A DNA stretch of 64,000 nt from Thysanoteuthis rhombus (lineage: Eukaryota > Mollusca > Cephalopoda > Oegopsida > Thysanoteuthidae). Positions 23,799 through 57,475 of the stretch are shown here, piece after piece. Where the stretch lies: assembly GCA_963457665.1 (NCBI GenBank), contig OY735207.1, positions 37,038,316 to 37,102,315 on the forward strand, in the 5' to 3' direction. The translations under genes and the position numbers were made by a program. The notes under the pieces are model-generated. The model searched no databases. It worked only from the letters and a program-made list of their open reading frames with translations, and had not been told where the DNA came from. Numbering within the stretch: the first letter of the stretch is position 1; every line of letters begins with the position of its first letter.

Positions 23799-26700
23799 CA
23801 GTATCTTTTTTTTACCTTCTGCCTTTAAACTCTTGAATGACTGGCATTTGTTAAACGCAACCATTGATACATCTTTTTTCAGAAGCAGCTGTTTAAACAG
23901 AAAAAATGTACAAATCTGAGATTAATAGTAATGCCTATACCCATGATATGAATAATTTAATGTACAGAAATGTTAAATGCTCTCGTCTCTTTAAAAAAAA
24001 TTTTTTTCTACTAATTTGGTCTGAAAGAGGTGTCAATCCTTGGTATACCAATTTTTGGAATCTAGAAGTCACTCCCAAATACGAAAAAATTAAAAAGGAA
24101 AACCTATCTAAATTGGCAATCCTAGAAGTTGCCAGTGATCTACCTGAATAGAAGTTTATCTACACATATAGAATGTGTATAATTGTGTAGACCATAAGTT
24201 CATGGCCTAATCATAAGTGATTCATTTTTTAACATAATCTCCTTATTTGTCAATGCACTCAATGATATCAACATATAAAACATTATGCAGGAAAAAATTT
24301 AGATCAAAATTCAGATAACTGTATCAGGCTATGAACTCAATGATCCACTCTTGTATATTATATATATTGTAATTATTATCATTTCTATTTTTGCCAGTGC
24401 AAACAAGCCTGGAATGACATAGTCATCATCAATGACATTCTTAACATAAACTATTCAGATGAGGTACTATCTGTGATTACATAAAAATAAATAAATAAAT
24501 AAATAAATGAATGAATAAAATGAATGAATAAAATGAATGAATAAAATAAATAAATAAATAATAGAATAAATAAATAAATAAATAAATAATAGAATAAATA
24601 AATAATAGAATAAATAATAAAATAAATAAATAATAAAATAAATAAATAATAAAATAAATAAATAATAAAATAAAATAAATAAATAATAAAATAAATAAAT
24701 AAATAATAAAATAAATAAATAAAAAAATAATAAAATAAATAAATTAATAAATAAAAAAAATGATAAAATAAATAAATTAATAAATAAAAAAAAATTAAAA
24801 AAAAAATATAATAAAATAAAAAAATAAATAAATAATAAAATAAATAATAAAATAAATAAATAAAGAAATGAATAATAAAATAAATAAATAAAGAAATAAA
24901 TAATAAAATAAATAAATAAAGAAATAAATAATAAAATAAATAAATAAAGAAATAAATAAATAATAAAATGAATAAATAAAGAAATAAATAAATAATAAAA
25001 TAAATAAAGAAAGAAATAAATAAATAATAAAATAAATAAATAAAGAAATAAATAAATAATAAAATAAATAAATAATAAAATAAATAAATAAAGAAATAAA
25101 TAAATAATAAAATAAATAAATAAAGAAATAAATAAATAATAAAATAAATAAATAAAGAAATAAATAAATAATAAAATAAATAAATAAAGAAATAAATAAA
25201 TAATAAAATAAATAAATAAAGAAATAAATAATAAAATAAATAAATAAAGAAATAAATAAATAATAAAATAAATAAATGAAGAAATAAATAAATAATAAAA
25301 TAAATAAATAAAGAAATAAATAAATAATAAAATAAATAAATAATAAAATAAATAAATAAATAATAAAATAAATAAATAAATAAAATAAATAAAGAAAGAA
25401 ATAAATAAATAATAAAATAAAGAAATAAAGAAATAAATAAATAATAAAATAAATAAATAAATAAATAATAAAATAAATTAAAATAAAATTAAAAGCACTT
25501 GGAGATTGCATACCTCTACCAAAGCCATTGTCTGGGGAAGTAATTGTGCATGGATCCACCCTAAAATTCAATCAGTTCTTCCTTAGCCTATTGTCCATCC
25601 TTTCACCAATTATTATGAGAACCAATTGAGAACTTCTACAAAATGTCATTTATTGATAACTGTTGTAGATATCATTAGGACAGTCATGAACATATACATT
25701 GATGTAATTATAAAAATAAAAAAAAAAAGGGAAAAAAATCTGTCGATCAGAGAAATTCCTGGATCCACCCTTGCCCAAAATTCATTGATCATTTCTTGAG
25801 AGATTGTCTGGATGGACATGGGATTTTGGTGATATCATGTGGTGTGGACACAAGATAACGATAGAGGGGAGGTAATTGTTCATGGATCTTCTCAAATTTG
25901 ATTAGTTCCTCCATGGTTGGTTTCTCATCCTTCCCTCAAAATATCATTGAAACGATCATTGAGAATTTTGCAAACAGAAAGAAAAGGGCAATAATATGTA
26001 ATTTTGGCGTATGACTGCGACGTAGGGGAGATAATTGTGTATGGATCTACTCCAAAATTGAATCAGTTCTTCTGTAGCTTATTGTCTACCACCTCACAGA
26101 ATTTCAGAGAAATTTTTTGAGAATGTTGTCTGGAAAGTCACAAGCAAGTACATTAATGTAAATAAATTGAAAAAAAAAAAAAAAAAAAAATGGAAAAAAT
26201 ATCTGTCAGACAGAAATACCTGGATCCACCCCCAAATTTTACTACCTCTTTCGTACCCCATCGTCAACCTTCCCACAAAGTTTCTTTGAAATTCATTGTG
26301 TACTTTTGGAGATATGTGGACTGACGAACAAATATACAAACGGACAGATAAATAGCCACAACCAAAAACATATACCTTTTTTCAACTTCATTGACAGGTA
26401 AAAAAAGATCATGAATGCATTCGAGTGATAAAACCAAACCTAATACATACTACAAAGTATGTTGAAAAATTACAGTTCCTCTTGGTAAACAGTCAGGATT
26501 GTTGACATATCATTGAAGGAGCAACAAAATAATTCTCCTTAATGAAGAGTCCAGAGTTGTATAATATAAACAATTAATGCAGGTTTCAAGCTATGCTTTT
26601 CTATTCTTTTGTTTGTATCTATTATGTTTTCTAAATGTGAATTTTCTCTTTCAGCTCCGTGGGAATATTCAGTTGTCTTTAAAAAATTTTTTTTTGATGA

Positions 26701-39859: not shown

Positions 39860-41100
39860 AGGTAACTACATCATCAGCTTTTCAGCGTCCTTAGATGGAC
39901 ATGAACTTTCCCCCAAGATTCACCAGACCATTTTATCATGGGTGTCACGGAGCCAGTGTTTTATGAATTTGTCTAGTTTGTCACACTATCTCATTTTTTG
40001 CTGGACACAATTTCGCACATGATCTCTAGAGCCATGTTGTGTGTCGTGATGCCCAGCAGTTGTCTGACATTTTTGCTACATGACCATCCCATTGCCATTT
40101 GAGTCTTATAATGAATTCTATGATATCTCTGACTCTTGTTTTTTCTCTAATGTATTGTGCTCTTGTAATCCTCTCTTCTGTGCACATTGCATGGTTCTCA
40201 ATTTTGGGGTCGATATTTTGGTTATTTTCCATTTTTTTTTCAGCTTCTTTTTAGAACTAATGGGATTTTTGAAGGTTGGGCTTGCTCTACCAAAAGCTTG
40301 CCAACTGAGAGTGATTCTTTGCTTGATTTTTTTTCATTTGTGGATTTCATGGCGATTCATTGTCCCAGGTAGATATAGCGGTTTACTTTCTTCAACTCTG
40401 TGTCTTTTATTTTAGTCATTGTGTCTTTGTCCTCAACATGTTTATTGTACATGATATTTGTTTTTCTGAAGTTTATGTGAAGCTCTCCTTACTTACTTTC
40501 TTCATTTAGTTTGTCTAGCATTATCTAAAGATTATGAAGGTTCACAGCAAAAAAAGATGATGTCATCAGCAAATCTGAGGTTACTTAGGTAATTATCATT
40601 TATTCTCATTCCTTTATTTGTCCAGTCTAGGTTTATGGGAGATCAACTTGAGGCAGGCTGTGAAGAGTTTATGTGAGCTGGTATCACCTTGTGTTACCTC
40701 TTTTCCAAGCTGAAAGGGCTCAGCCTTCATATAGCCTGAAAAAGAAACTGCCGTATTGGTATATATGCTGTAAGACTCTGACATATATGGAGAATATTCA
40801 TTGCTGCATGATAGTATCAATGACCTTTGGGATTTCCGCTGAATCAAAGGCCTTTTTGAAGTCAACAAACACTACAGTGAGAGGCATTTTATATCCTGCT
40901 GTTTTATCTTTTAGTTAATTTAGTGAATGAAGATGGTCAAGTAGCTCCTTCTGAGGCCAGCCTGTTCCCATGGTTGGTTTTCATCTAACTTTTGGTGATC
41001 ACTTTGATGGAAAATTTTGTAGATGCAGTTGAATAAGCTTAATGAACTGCAGTTGTTTAGATCTTTCAGATTCCCCTTTTTATATAACTGTATTATGATT
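39860..41100 (-). mobile_element. RTE-type LINE, RT palm to C-terminus, degenerate
   Basis: On the - strand, in shifting frames, VVFVDFKKAFDSAEIPKVID (about 40,820-40,895), QGDTSSHKLFTACL, LRFADDIIF (about 40,550-40,590), a YLGQ motif and finally ERITRAQYIREKTRVRDII, RLKWQWDGHVAKM appear in the right order for a non-LTR reverse transcriptase. The FADD catalytic motif is intact, but stops and frameshifts make the copy dead. It shares its C-terminal tail with the 13 kb fragment. Confidence 0.85.
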
Positions 41101-42290
41101 GCTTAGATGATAATGAATATGTTCACCAAATTTTGAGTTGGTACAATTTGAACATCATTTACAACAAAAAAGAATCATCAGTTTTTTTTTTCTGTATTTT
41201 TTCACTTGTGTATTAGTATGCAGCCTTGTTCATGAAGCTGTCATTTCTTGGATTAGTATTACTCTCACAAAATATCTATTAAGTTTGTCAAATGGAAACT
41301 TTTACTCAAATTGTTGTCATGAAATTAATTTTTGAAAAAATTCCAGCATCACGAGAAAGTGTTTACTCATTGTAGTTTATCTGAGACACCCTATTTAGTT
41401 TATTTTATGTATTGTCTCCGTTAAATATTTTTCTTACCTTTCTTTTGTATAAGCACATATACATGTATGCATTCTTTATCCTATTCCCATGACAATATAT
41501 AGACACAAACCAAAAGGCACTTTGCTTGGTTGCTAGTCTTAAATTAAATTTGAATCATTAACTTTGTCAGGTTGTGAAGAGTAATAGTTATTACTATTAC
41601 TGGTAATGGGTTATAATATACATAATTCCCCAAGAGACATTGATCTGATTCAATTGGTTAATACAAAGTGTGGTATGAATTAGTTAAGTAATAATGGGCC
41701 ATTTGATTCATAAACGTTGACTAAAAAAGAAATTAAGTAACATTGGTTTTAGTTTTTCTTTGTACAATAGCAACTTTATTCTTTTGATTATACAAATGAC
41801 CTACTGGAAGAAAATTTCTGATCTTAAAATAGTCTCCATATAAAGCAACATTCTAAGATTAGAAAGAGGGAAAGAGAGATGTCATATTAATGTTGGGCCT
41901 ACCACACGTACCCTGATGATAATACAAGCAGCATGTATAGTGTATATATATATAGAAGTGACACGAACAACGAGCCATGTCTGTTGTTATATTTAGTGAT
42001 CCCTCATCATCAAATATGTTTTTGGGTAACCTACATTTAAGCCCAGTGTTTGGGTGGGGGGAATTAAAGGATGTGTAATCTAAAATAACATCTATTTACA
42101 ATACATTATGATAATACACTCTATAAAATAACAGACCACATGTTGTATGACAGAAGCTATGTATAAAAATCATAGCTGAAATGGAGGTGGTGTTTGATCA
42201 ACACTGCTGTGGTGCCATGTTCATATAACTGTTTTGTTTTTAAATCCCCAAAATGGTTACATGGTAAACAACTGATGATCCCAACAAGAG
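41100..42290. other. No gene seen
   Basis: AT-rich sequence with a short TA tract at 41,942. No protein motif read on either strand. Confidence 0.5.
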
Positions 42291-54710: not shown

Positions 54711-55187
54711 GTCCCCCCCCCTTTCAGACAAACCTCAATAAATAAAATATTTTTTTAAATACCTAGTTGGAGAAACTTTATAAATAATAAACCCAAATAA
54801 TTCCTAATAATCATGAAAAAGCCTTAAAAACAAAAATTTATTATTTTGTTCATCTAAAATAATTATGATGTTTCCCCGTCTAAATCTTTATAAATATTTT
54901 TATTTATTGATTCGGTGCTAAATTTCTTGAATTAATTTTTCTTACTTGACTCTTTTGTTACTACTAGTGCTAAAAGGCTGAGATTCAAATATGAGTAAAA
55001 AATGCAGGATCACATTTTACTTTCTTGTTTTTCATGTTTTGAATTTTTCTTTTACATATATTTATTTGTAGAAATAAATTATTTTGAATAGGATCCTAAC
55101 TTGCTCAAAATTTTGGATTTGTCCCTGTCAAGTTATAATGGTACTTTTTAGATAGACAGATATTTTGGTAGATAGATACCTAATCTT

Positions 55188-55193
55188 TTTATT
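55188..55193 (-). terminator. Poly(A) signal overlapping the FANCG stop codon
   Basis: On the - strand the last sense codon and stop read AAA TAA followed by AAAA, so AATAAA spans the last Lys codon, the stop and one base beyond. If used, the 3' UTR would be only about 15-30 nt. No alternative was looked for exhaustively downstream. Confidence 0.5.
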
Positions 55194-57447
55194 TGGAATG
55201 TAATAATCTACGCAAGATACAAATGTCAAATCTCAGTAAAGTGCATGATGTTGGGGGGTCAGTAATTTTGGTTGCATCAGCATCGCTCTCACAATTTGCA
55301 TTTTGTAACACCTCTAGTTCTTTTTGTTTTTCACTTATTTCTTTTTGCAGTTGTACTGTGTTGACACTGAGGTCAAATTGCCTGTGTCTGGCCCAGAAAA
55401 GTGCTGCCTCTTCAACTTCTTTTAATTGTATAAGAGTAAGGGCACAGTTGAAATTGAGGGAAGGATCACAGCTATTAATCTGTAACCCCAATCGAAAACA
55501 ATGAAGGGATTCCTGAAACTGCCCTCTACACTGCAGAAGTACTCCAGTATTGTTATACATTGAACTGATGAGGCTGTTTCGGTAGTCCCTCTTGATTTTC
55601 AATTCCACTTGATTTGGGTCAGAAGTTGGCTGACTCTTCAAACTTACTTTCTGGCGCTTGGACAATGGCTGTAATTCTGGGGACGCCGGAATTAAATTGG
55701 CACCTTCACTTTTTATGATATTAGTAGCTCTCTGCAAGGAGCTGAAAACATTTTCTATTTCTTTAAGATGGAAATATGCATCAGCCTTGTACAGAAGTGC
55801 ACTTAACAAAACATCATTCACTGAAGATGGCTCTGATTTACAATGTTTCGCATAGCTTGGAAGGAAGTTTGTTGAGCTTATCTCTGAGTGGTGACGTTTT
55901 TTTGAGAATTCAGAATCGCCAAAGAGAAAATCATTTTCTTCCTGATCAGAATGGTTATTCTTGTCAAAGATAGATGATTCTTCAAAACTCTCAGGAAAGG
56001 ATGCTGGTATAGAGTCAGAAATACAGGATAGTAACCAGTTGCAGATTGCAATGCATTCTGGGTAACGTTCAGCAGACAACATGCAGAATGCTGCTTCCAA
56101 ATGGATTTCTGCTACTCCTGGTATCGGTGTGGAATTAGAGTCCGATGGCTGAAAAATGGGAGTTTCCATGAGAACAGTAAGAAGATCAAGGAAGTTTTCA
56201 GAAGCTTGAGAGAAATGTTTGAGTTGAAGAGATCTATGGCTCTGCAAGTACAAGGCGTAAGGTAAAGTTAATAAAGAATTAGAGGAAGACTTGGATATTT
56301 CAAATCTGTTGAGACAAAACTCTACACACTTCTTCGATTCATTTCTTTTGCTTTCCAAAGCTTTCACAAGGTATTTCAAGCTTTCAAGTTCAGCATCTTC
56401 TTTCTGTTGGTGCCTGTAAATCACTGTAACATTGTACAGGGGAAGAGGGGAGAAGTTCTTTTTCAGTGCCGATTGAAATTTCTGTATTCCACTCCAGCAG
56501 TTTCCAAGTTTAAACAAACAACATCCTTTCAGATTTAAAACGAATGATTCTAAGATATCACCGATGAAATTTTGTTCTAAATTATTTAAAACATCAAGAG
56601 CTTTTTGATACTCACATTCTCTATATAAGCAGTAACCTTGAACATAATGTATGTATGGTATCCAACGAATGTGGTCAATTTGCTTGGCAATCTGAGAATG
56701 AAAAGAGTAAGTCCTCAAAGCAAGGTCAAGAATCTGAAACATAGCAGTCATATTGTTGCTTATATTGTCACTAAGTGGGTTCTTATTGTCTAACCCAGGT
56801 GCAGCAGGAAGGGCAAACCGAAGATCCCATTTACATTTAACCATCTCTTTCGAATTTTCTGCCAACAGTTTTTTAACCAATGATTCCAGCTGTTGTTTTT
56901 CACTGGTTGAAACAACACACGACCATAAATATAAAACAGGCCTAAGACAGCATAAAAGAGATTCGTTAATAACAGTTTTCGACAAAACAGAATCAGGGTC
57001 ATTATCAAGAAAATAGGTACTCGGATACGTGTCAGTGGCAAGAATACGTTTCACAGTGATTTCAAGGTGTGAATTTAAATTCTCTCCAGAGGAATTCACG
57101 GTGGAATTCGATTCTGGTTGATTTTTAGAGTCGAGTAAAATTAGGTTATAAAGAACGGCACATTCTATCACCAGTCCGAAATTATTTTCTGTTGAGTTGA
57201 AGCTCCTGATTTTGGTTAATAGATTTCCTAATGTGACCCGGGTGGAGTCAGTGTCCGCTATTTGCGAAGCTGTTTGGATGTATTGTTTCGATACAAGGCT
57301 ACAAATAGTGACATTGTTGTCTCTCACCCATTCCAAGAGGTCAAAGGTCGGGAACTGGATGCTTTCTAAAGTTTTTAAACACTGTGAATATTTGCCACAT
57401 TCAAATTCTTTTAAAGAATCGTGGATTACTGTCGCTATCGAGCTCAT
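55189..57447 (-). CDS. FANCG: FANCG-like Fanconi anaemia core-complex TPR protein, intronless
   Basis: An uninterrupted 752-codon frame. FANCG is a TPR scaffold of the nuclear Fanconi core complex, which ubiquitinates FANCD2-FANCI during interstrand crosslink repair. Recognition rests on segments that line up with vertebrate FANCG: AELESL at 352-357, a YLDLLALL-like NFLDLLTVL at 418-426, E-x-x-LEAA at 447-453 with a following helix, and an ALFWAR-like stretch at 682-687. Helical TPR-type pairs sit near 264-297, 301-333, 335-365, 396-430, 447-475, 546-580, 627-658 and 663-690. Residues 698-716 look like a short coiled coil. An acidic/serine insert (about 480-545), with KKRHH and a later SKRQK as possible nuclear signals, makes it longer than the 622-residue human protein. 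The start is the first in-frame Met, 30-45 bases downstream of a TTATCTCCCTTG motif. Human FANCG has many exons, so the single exon suggests intron loss or retroposition. Confidence 0.82.
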   Translation of the reverse strand: MSSIATVIHDSLKEFECGKYSQCLKTLESIQFPTFDLLEWVRDNNVTICSLVSKQYIQTASQIADTDSTRVTLGNLLTKIRSFNSTENNFGLVIECAVLYNLILLDSKNQPESNSTVNSSGENLNSHLEITVKRILATDTYPSTYFLDNDPDSVLSKTVINESLLCCLRPVLYLWSCVVSTSEKQQLESLVKKLLAENSKEMVKCKWDLRFALPAAPGLDNKNPLSDNISNNMTAMFQILDLALRTYSFHSQIAKQIDHIRWIPYIHYVQGYCLYRECEYQKALDVLNNLEQNFIGDILESFVLNLKGCCLFKLGNCWSGIQKFQSALKKNFSPLPLYNVTVIYRHQQKEDAELESLKYLVKALESKRNESKKCVEFCLNRFEISKSSSNSLLTLPYALYLQSHRSLQLKHFSQASENFLDLLTVLMETPIFQPSDSNSTPIPGVAEIHLEAAFCMLSAERYPECIAICNWLLSCISDSIPASFPESFEESSIFDKNNHSDQEENDFLFGDSEFSKKRHHSEISSTNFLPSYAKHCKSEPSSVNDVLLSALLYKADAYFHLKEIENVFSSLQRATNIIKSEGANLIPASPELQPLSKRQKVSLKSQPTSDPNQVELKIKRDYRNSLISSMYNNTGVLLQCRGQFQESLHCFRLGLQINSCDPSLNFNCALTLIQLKEVEEAALFWARHRQFDLSVNTVQLQKEISEKQKELEVLQNANCESDADATKITDPPTSCTLLRFDICILRRLLHSK

Positions 57448-57475
57448 TCTGTTTTGATTTTAGGCGGGAAATACT

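Follow-up and report, generated by a model that had tools for sequence, protein, structure and literature searches.

The window, a 64,000-nucleotide stretch of a squid contig, carries on its minus strand a long open frame that is very probably an apparently single-copy cephalopod orthologue of FANCG. The encoded protein is a helical scaffold of tetratricopeptide repeats (TPRs), and the coding introns of the gene have probably been lost, likeliest by way of reverse-transcribed mRNA or of replacement by a retrocopy. From its sequence we read the gene as a putatively functional orthologue in this genome; it is an ordinary FANCG orthologue with an unusual gene structure.

An intronless FANCG coding frame

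The FANCG coding sequence occupies 55189..57447 on the minus strand as a single unbroken frame of 752 codons plus stop, with the ATG at 57447 and the TAA stop at 55189-55191; measured from stop to stop, the open run extends over 756 codons. In assembly coordinates, the 752 codons lie at C10:37093507-37095762. A 752-codon, single-exon open frame had been claimed for this place by the first-pass annotation, whose coordinates proved exact and which left the strand unstated. At the mean stop frequency of the window (0.064), the chance of a 756-codon open run is ~1.5e-22 per start position, and the runner-up elsewhere in the window has a length of 176 aa (frames of at least 120 aa compared, simple-repeat arrays set aside). 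Among 318 frames of at least 50 aa that passed a complexity filter, the FANCG frame reaches a codon score of 206 against 13 for the next best, the score having been trained on the FANCG gene itself. GC contents at codon positions 1/2/3 of the frame are 0.43/0.35/0.36. The coding sequence is intronless at the DNA level, and an intron in the 5′ UTR is possible.

Upstream of the ATG, at a distance of 16 bp, lies a candidate site (57464..57471, minus strand) with the sequence TTTCCCGC, which we take to be an E2F-like motif. This 8-mer is present as a single copy in the window, both strands included, where ~0.55 copies are expected (~0.0009 per 100 bp); the looser pattern TTTSSCGC is found twice. 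Predicted E2F sites are described in a passage of PMC3149625 as common to human core-complex promoters. At the other end of the gene, AATAAA (55188..55193, minus strand) overlaps the stop codon as a possible poly-A signal, and the next such hexamer starts at 55066.

Elsewhere in the window, a 1-kb AAAT tandem array of ~247 copies and very low GC spans 24485-25478. A 436-aa frame near FANCG (L004:4406-5713) was recognised by eye as reverse-transcriptase-like, and a stretch of the window at 40923-41102 may be a remnant similar to it. Ten small frames of the window returned one weak sub-cut-off match in Pfam, and no neighbouring gene could be named. In NCBIfam, six families matched at E ≤ 1, each far under its own cut-off.

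Identity and architecture of the protein

A phmmer search was carried out against the sequences of solved structures (PDB), which served as the set for the best-relative test rather than a full proteome, and human FANCG is the only significant match (E 2.8e-11), followed by an entry at E 0.15. The FANCG identity proposed in the first-pass annotation is thus supported, and within the PDB no other TPR family gives a better match. The homologous block comprises residues 303-482 (56002..56541, minus strand), which phmmer aligns to residues 267-449 of the human chain 7kzp_G; identity extends to 56 of the 176 aligned residues. In a two-sequence BLASTP comparison of the squid protein with the human FANCG block stretch, 27 of 82 residues are identical (E 7e-4). 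The helix motifs on which the earlier assignment to FANCG had drawn could all be located: AELESL at residue 352, NFLDLLTVL at 418 and EIHLEAA at 447, these three inside the block, and ALFWAR at 682. Searched alone, residues 1-300 yield no FANCG at E ≤ 10 and nothing below E 0.4, and the last 269 residues likewise yield no FANCG at E ≤ 10, their best match being the TPRs of OGT (E 0.005). Homology is therefore shown for the centre of the protein and assumed for both ends.

Pfam places a tetratricopeptide repeat at residues 265-288 (56584..56655, minus strand; TPR_2, whole-protein E 1.4e-8, above cut-off) and another at residues 631-658 (55474..55557, minus strand; TPR_1, whole-protein E 2.9e-6, slightly under cut-off). 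Weaker Pfam matches, to models that are TPR-like or unrelated, are sub-cut-off. We consider it very unlikely that the frame encodes some other TPR protein, for example an OGT- or APC-like one. Such an assignment would draw on the generic TPR matches, on the preference of the last 269 residues for OGT and on the weak TPR-type Pfam models that overlap the FANCG block, but the FANCG match is better than the runner-up by nearly ten orders of magnitude, and neither of the two best TPR_2/TPR_1 stretches falls within the FANCG block.

The FANCG block is followed by an insert at residues 483-545 (55813..56001, minus strand) that is serine-rich and probably disordered; residues 479-532 are without helix in a very low-confidence predicted model. 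An acidic insert at about 480-545 had been part of the initial description: the insert is present, but its acidity is modest, with 13 D/E against 6 K/R in 63 residues. AlphaFold2 single-sequence models have a mean pLDDT of 35 for the whole protein and of 37 for residues 250-485 alone, values too low for a fold comparison. The conserved central block overlaps the first part of the human FANCG stretch 416-491, and for that stretch PMC7467173 reports, in its account of the map, a better fit by two long helices than by four shorter TPR-homology helices.

Copy number and FANCL

A second FANCG copy and a FANCL gene had both been named beforehand as worth looking for in the same genome; the former was not detected at E ≤ 0.001 and the latter was found. 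The copy search covered the 2.73-Gb assembly (514 contigs) in six frames at E ≤ 0.001 and returned the query itself as the sole match; because 6 candidates were scored, a strongly diverged FANCG exon could be missed. For FANCA, a genome search with PF03511 gave no match at E ≤ 0.001, and none of 14 control genomes matched either.

The contig that carries FANCG also includes FANCL, at a distance of ~0.95 Mb. The RING domain of FANCL was recognised as FANCL_C (E 3.8e-27) in a 289-codon frame, with two further matches at E ≤ 1 that fall under cut-off; in the control for this search, a match was obtained in E. coli only, also under cut-off. The gene was read as two coding exons (L012:862-1710 and L015:7975-8223; C10:38040717-38044452 in the assembly), both without internal stop. 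The second coding exon opens at an AG acceptor, runs for 282 codons up to the stop and matches human FANCL with E 6.8e-87. The upstream exon matches FANCL_d1 (E 8.3e-21); it begins after a pyrimidine-rich acceptor that directly precedes the ATG, and its GTGAGT donor lies ~2.6 kb before the terminal exon. As read, with splicing predicted from the sequence, FANCL would contain one coding intron and a probable 5′ UTR intron, so that its 3′ three quarters are intron-free and the sole coding intron is closer to the 5′ end. Human FANCL has 14 exons. Within the first coding intron of the squid gene, ~100 bp from its start, we observed the E2F-like palindrome TTTGGCGCGAAA (L015:8320-8331).

With FANCG and FANCL both found, a scaffold and the catalytic subunit of the Fanconi core complex are encoded in a protostome. 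By homology, squid FANCG would act in this complex, where it would bind FANCA and help to hold together the FANCL ubiquitin ligase, which in turn would modify FANCD2-FANCI at DNA crosslinks. FANCA binding and support of the nuclear core complex by FANCG are described in PMC7102982. We infer that FANCG is expressed in this animal and is a member of its complex.

The same genome was searched for the mollusc haemocyanin domain PF14830. The search gave 52 matches, one of them weak, and within the match list three clusters with eight domains apiece can be discerned; eight units per haemocyanin subunit is the pattern of decapodiforms (squid, cuttlefish). One unit scored 708.7 bits against PDB haemocyanin 6r83, which we take to be squid haemocyanin, with 66 of 79 residues identical in the stretch compared, and 465.8 bits against 3j32. 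Nine domains that agree exactly in score and frame length follow one another at a spacing of ~2.18 kb (G000:C25:56607734-56625492), and this run reflects either recent tandem duplication or an error of assembly. Judged by these matches, the haemocyanin genes fit a cephalopod host that is probably decapodiform.

How the introns may have been lost

The first-pass annotation had suggested either that introns were lost or that a retrocopy took the place of the parental gene. The coding introns are indeed absent, against 14 exons in mouse, but neither mechanism is established. The introns of FANCG would have been lost via reverse-transcribed mRNA, or a retrocopy would have replaced the parental gene. 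Loss in place, by recombination with reverse-transcribed mRNA in a process that would also have struck FANCL in the same lineage, is a serious possibility that we hold to be only a little short of probable. It accounts for a FANCG gene without any coding intron together with a FANCL gene with a single one nearer the 5′ end and an intron-free 282-codon terminal exon. A bias towards the 3′ end is expected of cDNA-mediated intron loss, and the intron-free 3′ three quarters of FANCL fit this expectation. Two intron-poor Fanconi genes, with the FANCL intron placed 5′-ward, are therefore suggestive of loss via reverse-transcribed mRNA, although the sample is n=2 genes, without a control gene for the intron density of other repair genes here. 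The core-complex genes of the cephalopod lineage could even have been stripped of introns as a group via germline cDNA, FANCG of all and FANCL of all but one coding intron, and a protostome would then possess an ancient and essentially complete core complex; we regard this broader reading as improbable.

Replacement by a retrogene, in which a spliced FANCG mRNA was copied into another site and the multi-exon parent later disappeared, is possible but rather doubtful. The coding frame without an intron and the lack of a second detected copy agree with it, amphioxus SYCP1 provides a precedent (PMC5803294), and for FANCG taken alone it fits equally well. A 14-bp AT-only direct repeat also flanks the gene, with one copy 415 bp upstream of the ATG and the other 432 bp downstream of the stop, and block shuffling of the flanks reached this length in just 3 of 200 trials. 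We rejected this repeat as a target-site duplication: when the same geometry is slid across the window, a shared stretch of at least 14 bp appears in 72 of 544 placements, which makes it ordinary here, and no A tract precedes its 3′ copy, so that it does not count as a retrocopy mark. Downstream of FANCG, no A8+ run is found within 1.5 kb, and around the gene the marks of a recent retrogene (poly-A tract, target-site duplications) gave nothing convincing; such marks decay in old events. The E2F-like box so close to the ATG likewise speaks against a copy inserted elsewhere, but the counterpoints from poly-A, repeat and E2F box are all weak if the event is old. That an intron-poor FANCG is instead ancestral in protostomes or molluscs, with the vertebrates as the intron-rich side, appears unlikely, given that intron loss is generally commoner than intron gain in animals.

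Age of the FANCG scaffold

The age of FANCG is a firm result. Since the genome is that of a cephalopod, the FANCG scaffold predates vertebrates, and the claim of a pre-vertebrate core-complex scaffold made at the outset is borne out; a protostome with FANCG and a FANCL gene puts the origin of the scaffold at least as far back as the bilaterian ancestor. FANCG is often portrayed as having arisen in vertebrates, and in the literature most of the core complex is assigned to that group. Section 5 of PMC4657327 attributes to most lower eukaryotes a simplified pathway with a core reduced to FANCL and FANCM, for a set of species in that section that includes no mollusc. Passages in other papers state that any invertebrate model organism has only a fraction of the genes (PMC6328202) and that fungi are without FANCG (PMC11061109), and PMC12126235 cites, with reservations, a proposal that the scaffold subunits arose at the cusp of vertebrates.

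Among the titles listed in searches of the open-access literature, none had a mollusc or other invertebrate FANCG as its subject. FANCG-like proteins are already named in automated annotations of invertebrate genomes, and the presence of the gene is therefore likely known to databases, even where little discussed. For structure work, squid FANCG provides a distant sequence that could show which FANCG surfaces are old, and an intron-free gene is easy to clone.

Comparison with known systems

Compared with vertebrate FANCG/XRCC9, the squid protein is likewise a TPR scaffold and shares the homologous block at the centre, where 56 of 176 aligned residues agree, but it has 752 aa against 622 aa in human (PMC4657327) and contains the serine-rich, mildly acidic insert. 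The gene structures differ more strongly: mouse Fancg has 14 exons (as given in PMC10342586), whereas the squid gene has zero coding introns. Human FANCF resembles squid FANCG in that it belongs to the core complex and has just one coding exon, according to PMC4657327, yet it encodes a different core-complex protein and is single-exon already in human. The amphioxus SYCP1 retrogene is similar in that this invertebrate copy has a single exon, whereas most animals have the gene in several exons; unlike the present case, its authors conclude that a retrogene at a new locus replaced the multi-exon parent, which was lost (PMC5803294).
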